From assembly GCF_000970205.1 (NCBI RefSeq), contig NZ_CP009512.1, positions 3,596,001 to 3,660,000 on the forward strand: DNA of 64,000 nucleotides. The letters are read 5' to 3'. Origin of the DNA: Methanosarcina mazei S-6. Its GTDB lineage: Archaea; Halobacteriota; Methanosarcinia; Methanosarcinales; Methanosarcinaceae. The position numbers and the translations under genes were made by a program. The notes beneath the pieces were generated by a model. That model was given only the letters and a program-made list of their open reading frames with translations. It was not told the origin of the DNA and searched no databases. Shown here piece by piece: positions 15,522 to 63,980 of the stretch; position 1 is the stretch's first letter; each line of letters starts with the position of its first letter.

Positions 15522-15959
15522 TGGTGCCAAAAACAAGCTTATTTTACAAAAAAAGTAAGGATTTAGATATTTAAGGTGGAAAACGAAGAGGCGAGGGTTC
15601 ACTTCATCCCCGACCTAAAGGACGGGGTATTCGTGACCCTCTGCGCTCCCGTAGTAATTAATGAAGAACACAATTAATGAAGAACACTCTTGTAAATATG
15701 ACTGATAACATACTCGTTCGGCAGTATGTTATGACTTGATAAGGATTAATTGAAGTGTTAACATAAATGACTCGATATAATGATTTTATATTTTATATAT
15801 CAATGCTCGAACACACGTCAAGGCAACATACTGTATTTATACCTTCTATCCAGACCATCAAACAATTACAGATTAAGAAATAGTTACAGACTTGATAGAA
15901 TTATGACAAACAGATAGTTTAATGGAATTGAGAGAAGATTTATAAAGAATTAAGTAAGA

Positions 15960-16104
15960 GGAATTTATGGAGTTCAAATGTTCTTTCCAGATTCAGCCGA
16001 ACTCCCTAAATATGCCCTGTTAGGCATGGTTAGGTTAGCTCTGCGTATATTTAAGCTTGCCTGATTTTGCTCTCCTAGGGTAAAACAACTTAGGAGTTAG
16101 ACAA
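15960..16104 (+). promoter_or_regulatory. Structured 5' leader (instance 1 of 5)
   Basis: The leader starts about 25 bp after a TATA-like ATTTATAAAG. It contains stem GGAGTTC/GAACTCC (15969-15975 with 15999-16005), a second stem ATGCC/GGCAT (16012-16016 with 16023-16027), the stretch TTAAGCTTGCC, and CTCCTA pairing with the ribosome site TAGGAG just before the ATG. The order and spacing match the leaders at 49.6, 56.9, 62.1 and 63.9 kb, although the stem sequence differs. Confidence 0.6.
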
Positions 16105-16968
16105 ATGATTAAGAACAAAGTTATGATAGCCCTTCTTTTGGCCATGCTGGCTGGTATAACATTGATACCATCTGTGAGCGCGAGTGAAAACAATGAAATC
16201 AATGCAGAAGTGAATATGGATGATGCCCTCACTACAGAAGAAAAGATAATTAGTAGTATTCCTTCGAATCAAAACTCTGTAGAAAATATTACAAAAGCTA
16301 AAGAACTTTTAGAAAAAGTTAAAGCACAAAATATACAGGAAATTTCTGATTCAGTAAATAAATCTACAAGTGGAACACAAATAAAATCAGCAACCACTGT
16401 TACCCTAGGAACGGATAAAACACTTACTACTGCAGACATAGGAAACTCTGGAACCTCAACTTCGGGAGCAGTACCTAATTTTAAAGATGCTGACTATTCT
16501 ACAAGTTATAGACGAGCTAGAGCATCGGTATTAATCGGCCCGGGAGGATACGGAACTGGTGGTGCTTGGGCATGGGTTGGAAAATCTATTTATGTGTCAG
16601 GTTCTGGCTCCCGATCAGCAAATATTAGAATGGCTGGGAACATAAAAGGTGAAACCAGCGCTTTCGCTGGTGGACAAAGTAATACAGATATAAATTTAAT
16701 AGTAAAAGACACAACAACAGGAACTTCATACACTACTTCGATATACAGCCAATCAGCTGGAGGAGTGGGGGATTATATTGTCGATGAAAGTTTTAATGAT
16801 GGAATTTCGGTAACTCTACAAGCGGGTCACTATTATAATATATACGTCTCAGTAGATGGGAGTACTGCAGTTTATTATGCAGGTGAAGCAGGATCTGATT
16901 TCGGCCCAGGGGACGGCGACGATGGAGGGCAAAAAGTCAGTTATTCTTCGATAGTAATTGATTTTTAA
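16105..16968 (+). CDS. Secreted protein of unknown function
   Basis: A 287-residue protein with a clear signal peptide (MIKNKVMIALLLAMLAG, then TLIPSVSASE, with cleavage after about residue 27). An acidic, coiled-coil-prone stretch (about 40-85) follows, then a Ser/Gly/Thr-rich domain that looks like a beta-sandwich. I do not recognise the family. Cysteines are absent, and a GPGDGDDGGQK turn lies near the C-terminus. It is preceded by the structured leader shared with genes of the 48-64 kb array. A small membrane protein gene follows 320 bp later; the gap shows nothing else. Confidence 0.8.
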   Translation: MIKNKVMIALLLAMLAGITLIPSVSASENNEINAEVNMDDALTTEEKIISSIPSNQNSVENITKAKELLEKVKAQNIQEISDSVNKSTSGTQIKSATTVTLGTDKTLTTADIGNSGTSTSGAVPNFKDADYSTSYRRARASVLIGPGGYGTGGAWAWVGKSIYVSGSGSRSANIRMAGNIKGETSAFAGGQSNTDINLIVKDTTTGTSYTTSIYSQSAGGVGDYIVDESFNDGISVTLQAGHYYNIYVSVDGSTAVYYAGEAGSDFGPGDGDDGGQKVSYSSIVIDF

Positions 16969-49059: not shown

Positions 49060-49599
49060 TTAGGGGTAAATGTAGCAGATACCTGCTATATCATCGGAGT
49101 GTAAACTTCTTTTCTTTGTTTCCCCTGTTGACATAGTACTGTACATTGTTGCTTCAGTATTGCTAGAATGACCCAAACTTAACCAGTGCCCAAATTCATG
49201 AGTAGCAGCACTTTGTACGTCGAAATATCCTGATGCTCCTGTAGTAGACCAACTCTTATCACTATTAAATCTTACAATACATTTCGTCATCGAGGTACCA
49301 CTATATGTCTCAGTAGTTGTCGCTAGCGGTCCACTTGATCCAAGTGACGTATAGTAAAGTTTGTTTTCACACCCTATCTGATAAAAGAAGAAATTTGCAC
49401 CAGCATTATTCCACGCACTCATAGCCTGAGTCAGAGAATTTGACCAAGAACTTGGAATTGAGGAATCCTTGTCGACTTGGGCAAATCCGGAATGCCAATA
49501 ACGCCCATTGTAGGTATACGCCGATGCCGGAGAAATAATGCTGACCAATGATATCGTAATCAACAAAGCTCCTATCAACATTTTTTTTCTATGCTTCAT
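49060..49599 (-). CDS. Secreted matrixin-like zinc metalloprotease
   Basis: A 179-residue secreted protein. The signal peptide is MKHRKKMLIGALLITISLVS and the residues up to about 28. The zinc site HEFGHWLSLGH (HExxHxxGxxH) is followed by a Met-turn in EATMYSTM, which places it in the metzincin/M10 group. No propeptide is visible. ATG 49599 is chosen because AGGAGG is 10 bases upstream and the signal peptide starts there. It is expressed from the conserved structured leader and is divergent from a DUF1724-type regulator. Confidence 0.88.
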   Translation of the reverse strand: MKHRKKMLIGALLITISLVSIISPASAYTYNGRYWHSGFAQVDKDSSIPSSWSNSLTQAMSAWNNAGANFFFYQIGCENKLYYTSLGSSGPLATTTETYSGTSMTKCIVRFNSDKSWSTTGASGYFDVQSAATHEFGHWLSLGHSSNTEATMYSTMSTGETKKRSLHSDDIAGICYIYP

Positions 49600-49740
49600 A
49601 TTTTTATTTCCTCCTACTAATCTCCTAGGAGGCAAGATCGAGCAAGCCTTAAGTACCCTTAAAGCTATCATTCCCTTGCCTCAGGGCATGTGAAGTTCAA
49701 ATCTGCTCTGGAGGGTTGTTTGAACTTCACATTCAAAAAT
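49600..49740 (-). promoter_or_regulatory. Structured 5' leader (instance 2 of 5)
   Basis: On the minus strand the leader folds as: outer stem GTGAAGTTCAAA/TTTGAACTTCAC (49690-49701 with 49719-49730), hairpin TGCC/GGCA (49677-49680 with 49685-49688), stem AGCTTTAAG/CTTAAGGCT, and CCTCCT (49627-49632) able to pair with the ribosome site AGGAGG (49610-49615) 10 bases before the ATG. A TATA-like AATAAATGTATAG near 49760 would start the RNA at about the outer stem. Confidence 0.65.
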
Positions 49741-49773
49741 CTCTCTTAATCTTCTCCTATACATTTATTACGG

Positions 49774-49790
49774 TGATGAATTTTTCATCA
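49774..49790. promoter_or_regulatory. Palindrome conserved in all three divergent spacers
   Basis: TGATGAATTTTTCATCA is a perfect 7-bp inverted repeat about a 3-bp centre. The identical site occurs at 57022-57038 and 62227-62243, each time between the leader and the regulator promoter, so it is a good candidate operator for the neighbouring regulator. Confidence 0.5.
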
Positions 49791-50035
49791 GCTTGATTAA
49801 CATCCATTAAACCACTTCTCTTTTTCATCAAAAATAGTAAAGTTTCATAGCTCTAATTGACGTCAGGAATTCGATCTTACTTTCAGCAAATAATTTGGAG
49901 ATTATTTCCTTCACTAAACCATAAAATTAACAAAAAGATAGCAACATGCATGCCCCAACAAAAGAAAAGAATATATTACGTCAAAACAATTTAATAAGAA
50001 AGTAAGGAAAAAAGTCTGTAGATGCGGCAACAGGA

Positions 50036-50851
50036 ATGAATAATTTCGAAATTTATAAGAAGATGGGCGATGACGTTCAGACAATATATAGGTCAAGACT
50101 TCTAACAGAGATACTTCTATCATTAAATGAGGGCAGCAGAAAGCTTTCCCAACTGCGTGAAATTACCGGAAGCACATCTCAGGCACTAATTCCGAAGCTC
50201 AGGAAACTCGAAGTGGATCACCTGATAGAAACAAAAGGACGCGAATATTTCCTGACGTCAGCAGGAAAAATTGTAGCTTCAGGAATAGCTGACTCTTTTG
50301 TAACATTTTGGACAATTAATAAATTTAAGCATTTCTGGATAAGACATTACCTCGAAGGAATTCCCAGTCCTTTGTTAAAAGAAATAGGATGTCTTTATGA
50401 GTCAGAAGTCCTCAAGGATCGAGGCATGAAGATCCTTAATGTCTACAACAATCAGTTAAAAATGCTTAAAGAAGCAGATCATATATACGGTATATCGTCC
50501 GTAGTAACCGAAGTGTATGCTGATGCTATCTCTGAAAGAGTGAAAGAAGGGGTCCCTGTCGAGCTTATAGTTCCTCTTCATGTTGCGGAAGAATTGAAGC
50601 GATCACCTTATCTGAAAAAAATAGAAGCACTGAAAGATTATGAAAACTTCAAATTAATGGTCATGGATGAAGATATTAAAGTTGGGCTCATTGTTACGGA
50701 TAAACGCCTTTCTCTGAACCTGTACAAAAAAGAAGGTATTGAGTACGACATAAGCACAGGCCTGTTCAGCTTTGACTCGAAGGCCATTGAATGGGGAGAG
50801 ATGCTTTTCTGGTATTGTAAAGGGAAGGCAGACTTCACAAAATTTCAGTGA
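50036..50851 (+). CDS. DUF1724-type winged-helix regulator, cassette 1
   Basis: A 271-residue regulator of the Methanosarcina ArsR-like/DUF1724 type to which the Msr methyltransferase regulators belong. The winged helix is about residues 10-85 (ILLSLNEGSRKLSQLREIT, LIPKLRKLEVDHLIETKGR); the C-terminal 180 residues form the regulatory domain (ELIVPLHVAEELKRSPYLKKI). The ATG is fixed because a 1-bp difference puts the ATG 15 bp upstream, used in other copies, out of frame. TATA-like AAGAATATATTACG lies near 49967. From 50405 on, the DNA is nearly identical to cassette 2. Ligand and targets unknown. Confidence 0.85.
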   Translation: MNNFEIYKKMGDDVQTIYRSRLLTEILLSLNEGSRKLSQLREITGSTSQALIPKLRKLEVDHLIETKGREYFLTSAGKIVASGIADSFVTFWTINKFKHFWIRHYLEGIPSPLLKEIGCLYESEVLKDRGMKILNVYNNQLKMLKEADHIYGISSVVTEVYADAISERVKEGVPVELIVPLHVAEELKRSPYLKKIEALKDYENFKLMVMDEDIKVGLIVTDKRLSLNLYKKEGIEYDISTGLFSFDSKAIEWGEMLFWYCKGKADFTKFQ

Positions 50852-50890
50852 TGTAGAAACTTGTTAGAAAATAACTGGATAGTCACCTTC

Positions 50891-51301
50891 TCAAACCGTA
50901 TATACCATTATCAGTATTGGATCCTCGTTTTCCCAATCTATATCTATGACAGCGGTGCTCCAGCGATGTAAGGATATTGGAATGTTTTTCTCTTCAATTC
51001 CGTTATCCAGTGTAATCTTGAATGTATATTTTTTCATTCCAGTAGAATATTGAAGACCGGACGGTTTTGCTTCTGAAGCCCTTTCACCAGGATAAAGCTT
51101 GTATGATTCTTTGAATATGGAACTGTTGTGTGAGTCCAATATTTCTACAGTTACTTCATGGGTCCCTGCATCATTATTTCTGATTTCAAAAAAATTAGGT
51201 AAAGCCGGACCGCCCAGAAGAAATATCAATGCACAATAACCCACGAATGCAGCTAAAAGTATGATTAACAAAAGTAAAAGTATTTTTCTAATATTTTGCA
51301 T
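50891..51301 (-). CDS. 136-residue single-pass membrane protein, cassette 1
   Basis: A protein with an N-terminal hydrophobic segment (about 7-31, LLLLLIILLAAFVGYCALIF) followed by a beta-rich domain: FFEIRNNDAGTHEVTVEIL, YKLYPGERASEAKPSG, KYTFKITLDNG, RWSTAVIDIDW. It resembles an extracytoplasmic Ig-like or carboxypeptidase-regulatory-like sandwich, but I do not recognise a named family. Convergent with the regulator gene, 40 bp apart. Full-length paralogues are at 63344-63754 and, with an internal TAG, at 53879-54289. Codons 37-55 are the source-equivalent of the 55-bp insertion at 28463. The region upstream is cut at 51337 by the ahb duplication. Confidence 0.75.
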   Translation of the reverse strand: MQNIRKILLLLLIILLAAFVGYCALIFLLGGPALPNFFEIRNNDAGTHEVTVEILDSHNSSIFKESYKLYPGERASEAKPSGLQYSTGMKKYTFKITLDNGIEEKNIPISLHRWSTAVIDIDWENEDPILIMVYTV

Positions 51302-55747: not shown

Positions 55748-56848
55748 TTATGCTGTAAGAGGAGTTACACCTAAATCAGACTGCACTCCAGACACTGGAG
55801 AAAATATTGAAGTCGAGTAGCCTGAATTATATGTTCCTACTCCTCCCCAATGGATTCCCACAATTTTAACACCGCCACTAACATAAACGTATACAGGGGC
55901 ACCACTGTCTCCACCGTCGCAGTTATATCCTGCAACATATTGTCTATACAAAGTACCAAGAGGGTTATCGTACGATGTTCTAATCTCAGTAACGCTTCCA
56001 TAACTCCTTCCTGTCGTGATACCCGATTTATAAACTGTATCTCCTATAGCGGCATTCTCATGTGATTTTACATCTTTTAGCACATCCGTATCTGTATCGT
56101 ATATCTTTGCAGCTACGTTAGAATATGGAACCCATGAGGCATCTGCATAATGTCCCCCAACTTTACTCACTGTTCCGACTTTGTTAGCACTCGGCCCAGC
56201 AGTAGGTTGCCATATTTGATCCCCAATAGATGGTGCAGTATGTCCTGCAACAACATAACCTTTAGTTCCACTACTAGTTTGTGCAGAAAAACCAAGGGTT
56301 GATTGCTTAATTCCATCTGGTTTTTCTGTGCATATTTTTATTCCTCCGATTATCGGACGCCATGAGCTAGTACGACTAGTTGGCGTAGGAAGGTCTTCAT
56401 ATACAATTATTAATGGAACATCTTTTACGGCAATATTTTGCCCATAGTTAGAAAATAGATCATAGAGCTCATTTTCTTTAGCTGCATCGATTTTTTGTCC
56501 TTTTTCGATTGCAACCTTAAGAACGCCATCAATGGTGTAACCATAGGCTATAACAGGACCATTTGGATAGAAATACTTTGACATTTCTTTTTCAAAATTG
56601 TCGTTAACTTCAGTATATATTTTATCAAGCGTATCAAGCCACTTTTCCCTTTCTTCCAAACTTTCAAAAGTAGGTATATTTCCATAAGCAGCAATAAAAT
56701 TCGGATCATTTTTCAATTCTTCAAGAGTTTCCGGGCCAAAGGTAAGCTTCTGCTCAATCACTTCTTGTGCACTTACTGCTGGCACAACAGCCATGCTCAT
56801 CAGCAGCATTGTGGCAAGCAGTAAACTTAATACAAATTTTTTCTTCAT
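55748..56848 (-). CDS. Secreted chymotrypsin-like serine protease with propeptide
   Basis: A 366-residue S1-type protease of the alpha-lytic/streptogrisin kind. It has a signal peptide (MKKKFVLSLLLATMLLMSMA, ending VVPAVSAQ), a propeptide of about 130 residues, and the catalytic domain: His in GYVVAGHTAP, a probable Asp in DASWVPYS, and Ser in NCDGGDSGAPVYVY. ATG 56848 is used because it begins the signal peptide and AGGAG lies 10 bases upstream. It follows the structured leader and is divergent from regulator 2. The signal peptide nearly matches that of 59388-60116. Confidence 0.88.
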   Translation of the reverse strand: MKKKFVLSLLLATMLLMSMAVVPAVSAQEVIEQKLTFGPETLEELKNDPNFIAAYGNIPTFESLEEREKWLDTLDKIYTEVNDNFEKEMSKYFYPNGPVIAYGYTIDGVLKVAIEKGQKIDAAKENELYDLFSNYGQNIAVKDVPLIIVYEDLPTPTSRTSSWRPIIGGIKICTEKPDGIKQSTLGFSAQTSSGTKGYVVAGHTAPSIGDQIWQPTAGPSANKVGTVSKVGGHYADASWVPYSNVAAKIYDTDTDVLKDVKSHENAAIGDTVYKSGITTGRSYGSVTEIRTSYDNPLGTLYRQYVAGYNCDGGDSGAPVYVYVSGGVKIVGIHWGGVGTYNSGYSTSIFSPVSGVQSDLGVTPLTA

Positions 56849-56990
56849 TTCATACTCACTCCTGTTCATTCCCAGGAGGCAAGATCAAGCAAGCCTTAAG
56901 TACTCTAAAAGCTATCATTTCCTTGCCTCAGGGCATGTGAAGTTCAAATGTGCTCTGGAAGGTTTGTTTGAACTTCACATTCAAAAATCT
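56849..56990 (-). promoter_or_regulatory. Structured 5' leader (instance 3 of 5)
   Basis: Outer stem GTGAAGTTCAAA/TTTGAACTTCAC (56937-56948 with 56967-56978) with an 18-nt loop, hairpin TGCC/GGCA, a slightly mismatched AGCTTTTAG/CTTAAGGCT stem, and CTCCTG able to pair with the ribosome-site CAGGAG. Relative to instance 2, both arms of the last pairing changed together (C-G added). Confidence 0.65.
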
Positions 56991-57021
56991 CTCTTAAACT
57001 TCTCCTATACATTTATTACGG

Positions 57022-57038
57022 TGATGAATTTTTCATCA
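57022..57038. promoter_or_regulatory. Conserved palindrome, cassette 2
   Basis: This is the TGATGAATTTTTCATCA palindrome, identical to those at 49774 and 62227, in the divergent spacer before regulator 2. Confidence 0.5.
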
Positions 57039-57283
57039 GCTTGATTAACATTCATTAAACCAATCCTCTTTTTCATCAAAAATAACGGAATTTCAGAGCT
57101 CTAATTGATGCCACGAATTCGACCTACTTTTAGCAAATAATCTTGAGATTCTTTTCTTCACTAAGCTATAAAATTAACAAAAAAGGTAGCAACATACATG
57201 CCCCTACAAAAGAAAAGAATATATTACGTCAAAACAATTTAATAAGAAAGTGAGGAAAAAATTTGTAGATGCGGCGACAGGAA

Positions 57284-58099
57284 ATGAATGGCTTCGAAAT
57301 TTATAAGAAGATGGATGATGACGTTCAGGCAATATATAGATCAAGACTTCTAACAGAGATACTTCTATCATTAAATGATGGCAGTAAAAAGCTTTCCCAG
57401 CTGCGTGAAATTACCGGAAGCACGTCTCAGGCACTAATTCCAAAGCTCAGGAAACTCGAAGCGGATCACCTGATAGAAACAAAAGGACGCGAATATTTCC
57501 TGACGCCAGCAGGAAAAATTGTGGCTTCAGGAATAGCCGACTCTTTTGTAACATTTTGGACAATTAATAAATTTAAGCATTTCTGGTTGAGACATTACCT
57601 CGAAGGAATTCCCAGTCCTTTGTTAAAAGAAATCGGATGTCTTTATGAATCTGAAGTCCTCAAGGATCGAGGCATGAAGATCCTTAATGTCTACAACAAT
57701 CAGTTAAAAATGCTTAAAGAAGCAGATCATATATACGGTATATCGTCCGTAGTAACCGAAGTGTATGCTGATGCTATCTCTGAAAGAGTGAAAGAAGGGG
57801 TCCCTGTCGAGCTTATAGTTCCTCTTCATGTTGCGGAAGAATTGAAGCGATCACCTTATCTGAAAAAAATAGAAGCACTGAAAGATTATGAAAACTTCAA
57901 ATTAATGGTCATGGATGAAGATATTAAAGTTGGGCTCATTGTTACGGATAAACGCCTTTCTCTGAACCTGTACAAAAAAGAAGGTATTGAGTACGACATA
58001 AGCACAGGCCTGTTCAGCTTTGACTCGAAGGCCATTGAATGGGGAGAGATGCTTTTCTGGTATTGTAAAGGGAAGGCAGACTTCACAAAATTTCAGTGA
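57284..58099 (+). CDS. DUF1724-type winged-helix regulator, cassette 2
   Basis: A 271-residue paralogue of the regulator at 50036. The C-terminal two thirds are identical to cassette 1 at the DNA level, while the winged-helix part has a few changes (DDDVQAIYRS, LNDGSKKLSQ). An in-frame ATG at 57269 would add MRRQE, but the corresponding ATG is out of frame in cassette 1, so ATG 57284 is preferred. The spacing of GAGG (57253) fits neither start well. TATA-like AAGAATATATTACG lies near 57215. Confidence 0.84.
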   Translation: MNGFEIYKKMDDDVQAIYRSRLLTEILLSLNDGSKKLSQLREITGSTSQALIPKLRKLEADHLIETKGREYFLTPAGKIVASGIADSFVTFWTINKFKHFWLRHYLEGIPSPLLKEIGCLYESEVLKDRGMKILNVYNNQLKMLKEADHIYGISSVVTEVYADAISERVKEGVPVELIVPLHVAEELKRSPYLKKIEALKDYENFKLMVMDEDIKVGLIVTDKRLSLNLYKKEGIEYDISTGLFSFDSKAIEWGEMLFWYCKGKADFTKFQ

Positions 58100-58138
58100 T
58101 GTAGAAACTTGTTAGAAAATAACTGGATAGTCACCTTC

Positions 58139-58366
58139 TCAAACCGTATATACCATTATCAGTATTGGATCCTCGTTTTCCCAATCTATATCTATGACAG
58201 CGGTGCTCCAGCGATGTAAGGATATTGGAATGTTTTTCTCTTCAATTCCGTTATCCAGTGTAATCTTGAATGTATATTTTTTCATTCCAGTAGAATATTG
58301 AAGACCGGACGGTTTTGCTTCTGAAGCCCTTTCACCAGGATAAAGCTTGTATGATTCTTTGAACAT
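58139..58366 (-). pseudogene. C-terminal half of a 136-residue membrane protein, fused in frame to upstream lipoprotein gene
   Basis: Bases match the 3' half of the cassette 1 gene almost perfectly (MFKESYKLYPGERASEAKPS to the end), but the membrane segment and first beta strands are missing. The sequence joins the stop region of the lipoprotein gene at 58373. The frame is continuous across the joint: TV, TAG, SSMFKESY. If TAG is read through, a 245-residue lipoprotein fusion results; otherwise this half lacks its own ribosome site and is probably silent. Confidence 0.7.
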
Positions 58367-58372
58367 GGAACT

Positions 58373-62054: not shown

Positions 62055-62195
62055 ATTGTATGCACTTTTTTTCTTTACTCCAGAGACAGGATCAAGCAGC
62101 CTTAAATATTTGCAAAGCTATCATTCCCTTGCCTCAGGGCATGTGAAGTTCAAATCTGCTCTGGAGGGTTGTTTGAACTTCACATTCAAAAATCT
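62055..62195 (-). promoter_or_regulatory. Structured 5' leader (instance 4 of 5)
   Basis: The outer stem GTGAAGTTCAAA/TTTGAACTTCAC (62143-62154 with 62172-62183) and hairpin TGCC/GGCA are kept. The next stem is weaker, and the anti-ribosome-site pairing is mostly gone, consistent with a damaged 5' gene end. Confidence 0.6.
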
Positions 62196-62226
62196 CTCTT
62201 AATCTTCTCCTATACATTTATTACGG

Positions 62227-62243
62227 TGATGAATTTTTCATCA
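62227..62243. promoter_or_regulatory. Conserved palindrome, cassette 3
   Basis: Third identical copy of TGATGAATTTTTCATCA, in the spacer before regulator 3. Confidence 0.5.
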
Positions 62244-62489
62244 GCCTGATTAACATTCATTAAATCACTTCTTTTTTTCATGCCAAATAGTAAAGTTTCA
62301 GCGTTCTAATTGACGTCAGAAATTCGATCTTACTTTCAGCAAATAATCTGGATATTACTTTCTTCACTAAATCATAAAATTAACAAAAAGATAGCAACAT
62401 ACATGCCCCAAAAAAAGAAAAGAATATATTACGTCAAAACAATTTAATAAGAAAGTGAAGAAAAAAATCTGTAGATGCGGCAACAGGAA

Positions 62490-63305
62490 ATGAATCATTT
62501 CGAAATTTATAAGAAGATGGATGATGACGTTCAGGCAATATACAGGTCAAGACTTCTAACAGAGATACTTCTATCATTAAACGAGGGCAGTAAAAAGCTT
62601 CCCCAACTGCGTGAAATTACCGGAAGCACGTCTCAGGCACTGATTCCGAAGCTCAGGAAACTCGAAGCAGATCATCTGATAGAAACAAAAGAACATGAGT
62701 ATTTCCTGACGTCAGCAGGAAAAATTGTGGCTTCAGGAATAGCTGACTCTTTTGTAACATTTTGGACGATTAATAAGTTTAAGCATTTCTGGTTGAGACA
62801 TTACCTCGAAGAAATTCCAATTCCTCTGTTAAAAGAAATCGGATGTCTTTATGAGTCTGAAATCCTCAAGAATCGAGGCATGGAGATCCTTAATATCTAT
62901 AACAACCAGTTAAAAATGATTAAAGAAGCAGATCATATATACGGTATATCGTCCGTGGTAACCAAAGGAGATACCGATTCTATTTCTGAAAGGGTGAAAG
63001 AAGGAGTCCCTGTCGAGCTTATAGTTCCTCTTCACGTTGCAGAAGAATTGAAGCGATCACCTTATCTGAAAAAAATAGAAGCACTGAAAGATTATGAAAA
63101 CTTCAAATTAATGGTCATGGATGAAGATATTAAAGTTGGGCTCATTGTTACGGATAAACGCCTTTCTCTGAATCTGTACAAAAAAGAAGGTATTGAGTAC
63201 GACATAAGCACAGGCCTGTTCAGCTTTGACTCGAAGGCCATTGAATGGGGAGAGATGCTTTTCTGGTATTGTAAAGGGAAGGCAGATTTTATAAAATTTC
63301 AGTGA
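62490..63305 (+). CDS. DUF1724-type winged-helix regulator, cassette 3
   Basis: A 271-residue paralogue of the regulators at 50036 and 57284, and the most diverged of the three (for example LVLKEIPIPLLKEI-type changes, VTKGDTDSISERV in place of VTEVYADAISERV). The last 80 or so codons are again nearly identical to the others. ATG 62490 is used for the reason given for cassette 2; ATG 62475 is in frame. TATA-like AAGAATATATTACG lies near 62420. Confidence 0.84.
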   Translation: MNHFEIYKKMDDDVQAIYRSRLLTEILLSLNEGSKKLPQLREITGSTSQALIPKLRKLEADHLIETKEHEYFLTSAGKIVASGIADSFVTFWTINKFKHFWLRHYLEEIPIPLLKEIGCLYESEILKNRGMEILNIYNNQLKMIKEADHIYGISSVVTKGDTDSISERVKEGVPVELIVPLHVAEELKRSPYLKKIEALKDYENFKLMVMDEDIKVGLIVTDKRLSLNLYKKEGIEYDISTGLFSFDSKAIEWGEMLFWYCKGKADFIKFQ

Positions 63306-63343
63306 TGTAGAAACTTGTTAGAGAAAAATCTGGACAAGCCTCT

Positions 63344-63754
63344 TCAAACAGTTCCTATCATTATCATTATTGGAGCCTCGTTATCCCAATCTATTACTAT
63401 AATAGGTGTGCTCCAACGATGTAAGGATACCGGAATAGTTTTCTCTTCAACTCCGTTATCCAGCGTAATCTTGAATGTATAATTCTTCATTCCGATAGAA
63501 TATAGAAGACTAAATGGTTTTGCTTCTGAAACACTTTCATCCGGATAAAGATTGTATGATTCTTTAATTATTGAATTGTTGTGCAAGTCCAATATTTCTA
63601 CAGTTACTTCATGGGTCCCTGCATCATTGTTTCTGATTTCAAAAAAATCAGGTAAAGCCGGACCGCCCAGAAGGAACATCAATGCATAATAACCTATAAT
63701 TGCAACTATGGGTATGATCAGCAAGAAGAGAAGTATTTTTTTAATATTTTGCAT
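63344..63754 (-). CDS. 136-residue single-pass membrane protein, cassette 3
   Basis: An intact paralogue of 50891-51301 with the same length and layout: membrane helix (ILLFLLIIPIVAIIGYYALM), then NNDAGTHEVTVEILDLHNNS, KNYTFKITLDNGVEEKTIPV and RWSTPIIVIDWDNEAP. It lies convergent to regulator 3, 38 bp apart. A degenerate form of the structured leader lies upstream of it, unlike cassette 1 where the upstream region was replaced by the ahb copy. Confidence 0.75.
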   Translation of the reverse strand: MQNIKKILLFLLIIPIVAIIGYYALMFLLGGPALPDFFEIRNNDAGTHEVTVEILDLHNNSIIKESYNLYPDESVSEAKPFSLLYSIGMKNYTFKITLDNGVEEKTIPVSLHRWSTPIIVIDWDNEAPIMIMIGTV

Positions 63755-63864: not shown

Positions 63865-63980
63865 TTCTGGAAAGCTAGGATCAGGCAAGTTTTAATTATT
63901 CGCAAAGTTAACATAAACCCATGCCTCGGACAAGATATGGATCAAAACATACTCTGGAGGTTGTTCGGACTATATAAACT
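63865..63980 (-). promoter_or_regulatory. Degenerate structured leader (instance 5 of 5)
   Basis: Read on the minus strand, GTCCGAACAACCTCCAGAG, then GTCCGAGGCATGGG and AAAACTTGCCTGATC follow the order of the other leaders (TTCAAACAACCCTCCAGAG, GCCCTGAGGCAAGGG, AAGGCTTGCTCGATC). The outer stem no longer pairs well. It is about 110 bp from the ATG at 63754. A TATATA-containing stretch at the far right may be its promoter. No other gene is seen to the window end. Confidence 0.5.

Follow-up and report, generated by a model that had tools for sequence, protein, structure and literature searches.

A covarying 5′ leader of secreted-protein genes in Methanosarcinales with the anatomy of a two-state translational switch

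In translational riboswitches and four-arm attenuators, an anti-Shine-Dalgarno arm masks the ribosome site and can itself be captured by an upstream arm, while in the RNA thermometers ROSE and fourU a hairpin masks the ribosome site. To our knowledge, archaea have yielded few cis-regulatory RNA switches so far, and we are aware of none with exported proteins as its regulon. The leader family described here shares the logic of the riboswitches and attenuators, in that an upstream arm and the Shine-Dalgarno (SD) sequence are alternative partners of its third arm; it differs from them in being archaeal, multicopy and linked to secreted-protein genes, with no known ligand, leader peptide or sequence relation. 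With ROSE and fourU it has in common the hairpin over the ribosome site, but, unlike them, it possesses a covarying competitor helix and a predicted default fold in which the ribosome site is open.

One diverged member of the family has been met before, in another capacity. The 5′ UTR of MM2442 is the cis target of the antisense RNA sRNA162, the first 65 nt of which bind the leader in vitro (Jaeger et al. 2012, PMC3510493); sRNA162 and sRNA171 form a pair in Methanosarcina mazei, whereas only one copy each is reported for M. acetivorans and M. barkeri (PMC3510493). The MM2442 leader (L023/L052; 68 bits) contains the outer stem P1, arms 1 and 2, the hairpin P3, arm 3 and the SD arm in the same order as the other copies and is transcribed as an mRNA leader, but in the earlier account it is an antisense target only, and not one of 26 leaders, part of an order-wide family or a switch. 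As to sRNA162 (RF02792), it belongs to the strand opposite to the leader family, its first 65 nt being exactly complementary to P1 and arms 1-2 in the leader of MM2442. When the sense leader was compared with 4227 Rfam models, nothing but sub-threshold antisense sRNA162 and chance matches emerged, and a search of open-licence papers yielded no description of the leader family. The statement of the first-pass annotation that no such family had been described therefore stands for the sense leader, which is in no Rfam family, but must be qualified for MM2442, already described as the sRNA162 target though not as belonging to a leader family. In our estimate the RNA family is new, while its functional kind, that of the ribosome-site switch, is known and its setting unusual.

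Copies of the leader in the window

The window is a stretch of 64,000 nt (C1:3596001-3660000) of the 4.14 Mb genome of M. mazei S-6. The five places at which the described parts had been noticed in order all carry them: the copies at 16 kb (plus strand), 49 kb and 56 kb (both minus strand) are intact, that at 62 kb is decayed and that at 63.9 kb, though degenerate as had been said, still reaches 68 bits (E 1.7e-11) with the covariance model described below. At 16, 49 and 56 kb, P1, arm 2, P3, arm 3 and the SD arm succeed one another in this order, with a signal-peptide ORF following at 20-30 nt; judged by this layout, both the 62 kb and the 64 kb copy are decayed. The features are as follows.

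15916..15938, plus strand: UAS-like promoter element of the 16 kb copy, AGTTTAATGGAATTGAGAGAAGA (position read from the window sequence; consensus aGTTTGAtnATTTgGACAGAAAA)
15939..15947, plus strand: TATA box of the 16 kb copy
15967..16007, plus strand: P1 outer stem of the 16 kb copy, ATGGAGTTC (15967-15975) with GAACTCCCT (15999-16007); P1 covaries
16013..16026, plus strand: arm 1 TGCC (16013-16016) and arm 2 AGGCA (16022-16026) of the 16 kb copy; arms 1:2 conserved, without covariation
16035..16060, plus strand: P3 hairpin of the 16 kb copy, TTAGCT with AAGCTTGC; covaries
16070..16080, plus strand: arm 3 of the 16 kb copy, CTCTCCTAGGG; partner arm 2 or arm 4
16089..16096, plus strand: arm 4, the ribosome-site arm of the 16 kb copy, CTTAGGAG
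16105..16968, plus strand: gene after the 16 kb leader, secreted protein of unknown family, 287 aa, signal peptide MIKNKVMIALLLAMLAGITLIPSVSA
49756..49765, minus strand: TATA-like box of the 49 kb copy, AATGTATAGG
49690..49730, minus strand: P1 outer stem of the 49 kb copy, GTGAAGTTC with GAACTTCAC
49675..49688, minus strand: arm 1 TGCC (49685-49688) and arm 2 AGGCAAG (49675-49681) of the 49 kb copy
49646..49665, minus strand: P3 hairpin of the 49 kb copy, GCTTTAA with TTAAGGC
49624..49636, minus strand: arm 3 of the 49 kb copy, CTTGCCTCCTAGG; partner arm 2 (AGGCAAG) or arm 4
49610..49617, minus strand: arm 4, the ribosome site of the 49 kb copy, GTAGGAGG
49060..49599, minus strand: gene after the 49 kb leader, secreted matrixin-type metalloprotease (Pfam PF00413, E 2e-16)
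56937..56978, minus strand: P1 outer stem of the 56 kb copy
56922..56935, minus strand: arm 1 (56932-56935) and arm 2 (56922-56928) of the 56 kb copy
56893..56912, minus strand: P3 hairpin of the 56 kb copy
56871..56883, minus strand: arm 3 of the 56 kb copy, CTTGCCTCCTGGG
56859..56864, minus strand: arm 4, the ribosome site of the 56 kb copy, CAGGAG
55748..56848, minus strand: gene after the 56 kb leader, secreted serine protease (PDB relatives streptogrisin B and alpha-lytic protease, E 2.7e-06)
62143..62183, minus strand: P1 outer stem of the decayed 62 kb copy (arm 3 remnant 62080-62089)
63866..63978, minus strand: degenerate fifth copy
49623..51124, strand not assigned: duplicated block of FilR1-like gene, intergenic region and leader, 90-96% identical to 56870-58372 and 62078-63500
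50036-50851, 57269-58099 and 62475-63305, divergent: HTH genes (MM2441-like or FilR1-like), also found at L033, L097, L121, L131, L198 and others

The arms had been quoted correctly, both for the outer stem (GTGAAGTTC/GAACTTCAC at 49, 56 and 62 kb, GGAGTTC/GAACTCC at 16 kb) and for the ribosome-site pairs (CCTCCT/AGGAGG, CTCCTG/CAGGAG and CTCCTA/TAGGAG); the AAGCTTGC-type segment is likewise present, but is now read as the 3′ arm of a third hairpin, P3. In the 62 kb copy (62055-62195), P1 and the central hairpin are kept while the ribosome-site hairpin and the Shine-Dalgarno are gone, the strongest pairing to the ribosome site amounting to just -1.1 kcal/mol; the adjacent ORF lacks a signal peptide, leaving an orphan leader.

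What did not hold is the treatment of the 49, 56 and 62 kb copies as three independent instances. All three lie at the end of one duplication of 1.4-1.5 kb, 90-96% identical, and are therefore not independent evidence. The genes behind the duplicates are unrelated to each other and the homology stops within the leader, at arm 3 (TGCCTCC), a pattern that would suit a leader at which secreted genes are captured.

Distribution of the family and the genes behind it

A search of the M. mazei S-6 genome by BLAST and profile detected further copies, e.g. before MM2442 and MM2449. With a covariance model built from 21 copies (R1), 26 matches were obtained in this genome, all with E <= 3.4e-9. Matches were present in 27 of the 31 Methanosarcina genomes, with up to 36 per genome, counts in which a few weak ones are the same element on the opposite strand; the R1 match was absent from the assemblies G011, G016, G017 and G019, two of which are at least 92% complete. 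More broadly, 67 of 112 genomes of the family and 97 of 186 Methanosarcinales genomes carry the leader, in 17 of 27 genera, including Methanosarcina, Methanolobus, Methanohalophilus and Ca. Methanoperedens. No match was found in 52 genomes of the same class outside Methanosarcinales, which served both as false-positive control and as clade limit. The E-values of the 26 copies, the order-wide occurrence and the empty control exclude chance; a scan with an exact DNA pattern was set aside as too permissive, giving many chance matches in bacteria.

Downstream of the leader, a signal-peptide-like ORF follows 153 of 173 distinct copies, compared with 11 of 51 background genes of the window (Fisher p 2e-19), as called by a crude hydropathy criterion (a positively charged start and a hydrophobic segment) rather than by SignalP. 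The ORF typically starts ~20-30 nt past arm 3. Signal peptides are often alike (KxGIGxLLxAMLLVSMAFVPAVSA), and the mature parts are diverse, 141 of them falling into 50 unrelated clusters, so that a structured 5′ leader common to unrelated secreted-protein genes, as first proposed from the window, is borne out on a far larger set. Recognisable products are mostly secreted peptidases, namely matrixin, reprolysin-like, C39-like and, at 56 kb, streptogrisin-like serine protease; the remaining ones belong to no recognisable family. The check suggested in the first-pass annotation, i.e. a covariance-model search of Methanosarcinales, has thus returned covariation (below), signal-peptide genes downstream and an occurrence in about half of the genomes searched.

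Covarying helices and the two proposed folds

Since alignments fitted to R1 lean towards their own structure, a swap test was added, in which the duplex energy of each copy's own two arms is compared with that of arms exchanged between copies, over 72 non-redundant copies. Four helices gave a signal: P1 (z -14.4); arm 2 with arm 3, that is GGCA with TGCCTCC, enclosing P3 (z -4.9); P3 itself (z -4.6); and arm 3 with the Shine-Dalgarno (z -6.0). Eight further region pairs, three of them negative controls, ranged from z -1.5 to +1.8. For P1, in two separate R1-fitted alignments, compensatory changes occur at 9/9 and 8/9 pairs, with arm variants such as GGAGTTC/GAACTCC, GGTGTTC/GAACACC and GAAATCC/GGATTTC, so that both arms of the outer stem do change together, as had been noticed; P3 has two-sided changes at 3/4 pairs in both alignments. 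The ribosome-site hairpin, too, is real by its swap test.

The TGCC/GGCA hairpin (arms 1:2) had been listed among the paired elements, and its two arms are indeed conserved, but they do not covary (z +1.3 on the 72 copies). As a covarying hairpin it was rejected, z running from +1.3 to +2.7 and being near zero or positive in each clade; GGCA covaries instead with the later TGCCTCC arm. RNAalifold, applied to the copies of the M. mazei S-6 genome, picked the arm2:arm3 helix unprompted. Arms 2 and 3 being highly conserved, the covariation of this helix rests mainly on flanking pairs.

In tests within three clade groups, P1 and arm2:arm3 hold in all three, the latter weakly within Methanosarcina alone (z -2.1), P3 in two of the three and arm3:SD in both Methanosarcinaceae groups. 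In the most distant families, arm3:SD is weak (z -1.6), the hairpin there hardly varying from CCTCC/GGAGG; in this group, one of the negative controls goes as far as z -2.2. Covariation strongly supports P1, P3, arm2:arm3 and, save in these most distant families, arm3:SD.

Arm 3 contributes at least 3 nt to both of its helices in 59 of the 72 copies; arm2:arm3 and arm3:SD are therefore mutually exclusive, which gives the leader the build of a two-state translational switch, with two exclusive helices, both covarying, one of which masks the Shine-Dalgarno. The role as an RNA switch that had been suggested for the leader gains support from this pair of helices. In folding calculations, the minimum-energy structure contains arm2:arm3 in 81% of copies, and constrained folding makes this helix the more stable one by a median of 3.9 kcal/mol. 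When P1 and arms 1-2 are blocked, a state that complete pairing to the first 65 nt of sRNA162 would bring about, the mean unpaired probability of the Shine-Dalgarno drops from 0.61 to 0.11, being lower in 58 of 61 leaders, and in the copies of the M. mazei S-6 genome accessibility goes from 0.48 to 0.08; blocking P1 alone did not lower it.

We consider it probable that the leader is a two-fold 5′ element controlling translation of a secreted-protein module, with the Shine-Dalgarno freed or masked by arm 3. As the 5′ RNA of this multigene module, it would fold into P1, P3 and four arms. In the ON state, usually the more stable fold, arm 3 (TGCCTCC) would pair with arm 2 (RAGGCA), leaving the Shine-Dalgarno free; in the OFF state, arm 3 would pair with arm 4, which is the Shine-Dalgarno itself. 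Whenever arm 2 is occupied, or the pairing of arms 1 and 2 is stabilized, arm 3 would go to the ribosome site and translation would be shut, which, going by the folding calculations, would make the leader a default-on switch that closes when arm 2 is taken. Against the simplest form of the OFF state stands the fact that arms 1:2, required there, are without covariation. From anatomy and folding we infer that the two folds form in cells and control translation, as well as the kinds of agent that may govern them: an antisense RNA, a protein, a metabolite or temperature are candidate triggers.

Temperature alone is an improbable agent. A thermometer in which the hairpin simply melts would agree with the moderate stability (mean -7.7 kcal/mol) of the helix between the Shine-Dalgarno and arm 3, but it needs no covarying competitor such as arm2:arm3, and the predicted ground state mostly leaves the Shine-Dalgarno free already.

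The loop of P1 (e.g. 49699-49721) is mostly 21-25 nt long. It has a CCARAG-like core, conserved only loosely, and pairs with no other part of the leader; pairings of the loop with the linker, arm 3, the SD region or the early coding region gave no swap-test signal and were discarded.

P1 with its loop of 20-25 nt might be the receptor for a metabolite, or for an RNA-binding protein reporting cell state or secretion load, that stabilizes one of the folds. We hold this to be possible though somewhat doubtful: P1 covaries in every clade, its partly conserved loop is unpaired with the rest of the leader and the regulon of exported proteins, many of them peptidases, is coherent, but the loop varies from 13 to 31 nt and is too loosely conserved to resemble most metabolite riboswitch cores. 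Advanced more readily, and still tentatively, is the wider proposal of an order-wide archaeal cis RNA switch in Methanosarcina, Methanolobus, Methanohalophilus, Ca. Methanoperedens and relatives, which would gate a regulon of secreted proteins (proteases and unknown exoproteins), sense a ligand or protein reporting the state of the cell or its envelope and move as a promoter-leader cassette that captures secreted genes.

Promoter, divergent regulators and antisense RNA

Transcription starting downstream of the stems, which the first-pass annotation had named as fatal to its reading, is contradicted in the one mapped member, MM2442: its start, mapped by RACE (PMC3510493), was placed ~13 nt upstream of P1 (on L009). 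In the remaining members, the spacing of the TATA box suggests a start just upstream of P1 as well. The positions of TATA-like boxes show two peaks, one ~25 nt ahead of the element and another ~20 nt further upstream, and copies of the second peak (e.g. L121, L131, L114 and L137) carry an extra 5′ hairpin, P0, in the gap (p 2e-10), the stems of which vary with compensation (AACATC/GATGTT, CACATT/AATGTG, GACACA/TGTGTC). A P0 that fills the gap together with a TATA box shifted by ~20 nt is what is expected if P0 is transcribed.

Just upstream of the TATA box, a conserved 23-bp element, aGTTTGAtnATTTgGACAGAAAA, occurs in 21 of the 26 copies of the M. mazei S-6 genome and before about half of the leaders outside Methanosarcina; it is a candidate activator site. 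An inverted copy often faces the divergent gene. Divergent HTH genes, FilR1-like or MM2441-like, are found at 33 of the 173 leaders; the MM2441-like regulator, with a hydrophobic N-terminal segment, is divergent to 23 leaders, those of Ca. Methanoperedens included, and the FilR1-like one to 10.

These regulators and the conserved element upstream of the TATA box would suit control at the level of DNA only, with P1 as a palindromic operator and the leader pairing as incidental. Such a role is very improbable, because P1 lies downstream of the start, its half-sites are 13-31 nt apart with no fixed spacing or helical phase, and P3, arm2:arm3 and arm3:SD covary as well, the last being sensible only in RNA. 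The variable spacing and the downstream RNA-level pairing led P1 solely as a DNA operator to be rejected.

Fainter still is the prospect of leader-peptide attenuation, whereby a short ORF opening with an RTG in the foot of P1 would be translated and the position of the ribosome would select the fold. Close to the expected start, the copies of Methanosarcina have a frame that opens with TTTATGGAG... and extends to as many as 30 codons; in the MM2442 leader, two sORFs have been reported (PMC3510493). The start triplet is nevertheless missing in 34 of the 72 non-redundant copies, stops are scattered relative to the arms and the foot of P1 still pairs when the triplet changes; the frame of the Methanosarcina copies is not conserved, no conserved short ORF over the arms was found in the 72 copies, and upstream-ORF attenuation was rejected.

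As regards antisense RNA, the M. mazei S-6 genome has both the sRNA162 and the sRNA171 loci. The start of sRNA162 lies opposite the GGCA arm (RF02792 match from L009:1501), from where the RNA runs antisense over arms 1-2 and P1. Because sRNA162 and sRNA171 are complementary to P1 and arms 1-2 at two loci, antisense pairing is the best-documented candidate trigger of the switch; for the other copies, a protein or metabolite bound to P1 and its large loop would be as likely as an antisense RNA.

A stronger version, in which opposed promoters overlap at every locus, a BRE/TATA inside the P3 region yields an sRNA162-type RNA and the leader is mainly its target, seems unlikely to us. In its favour, both sRNAs begin at the GGCA-arm complement and cover P1, nearly every copy has, on the antisense strand, a TATA-like TTTAAR in register, sub-threshold RF02792 matches lie antisense to several other leaders and sRNA162 binds the MM2442 leader in vitro as cited above. 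TTTAAR is, however, the 3′ side of the covarying P3, which gives a separate reason for its conservation; the AAGCTTGC segment was accordingly not taken to prove a promoter on the antisense strand, which is kept as a possibility. Just three sites in the M. mazei S-6 genome (2827951, 2822585 and 3536578) pass the RF02792 gathering cut-off of 78 bits, none of them a window copy (the 16 kb copy reaches 28.5), the antisense RNA is documented at two loci only and the SD hairpin covaries although it lies outside the antisense RNA.

In sRNA162 itself (L009 1501-1690), stem-loop 3 appears to be two inverted aGTTTGAtnATTTgGACAGAAAA promoter elements that are transcribed, and stem-loop 1 seems to be the antisense of P1. 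The conserved structure of sRNA162 may, to judge from these correspondences, partly reflect DNA elements and the opposite strand.

Both M. mazei and M. acetivorans are genetically tractable. If the switch reading is true, much of what methanogens and anaerobic methane oxidisers secrete in the way of peptidases is under the control of one RNA element. The reading would also offer a mechanism for the puzzling second target of sRNA162, in that the antisense RNA takes arm 2 and arm 3 closes the ribosome site.
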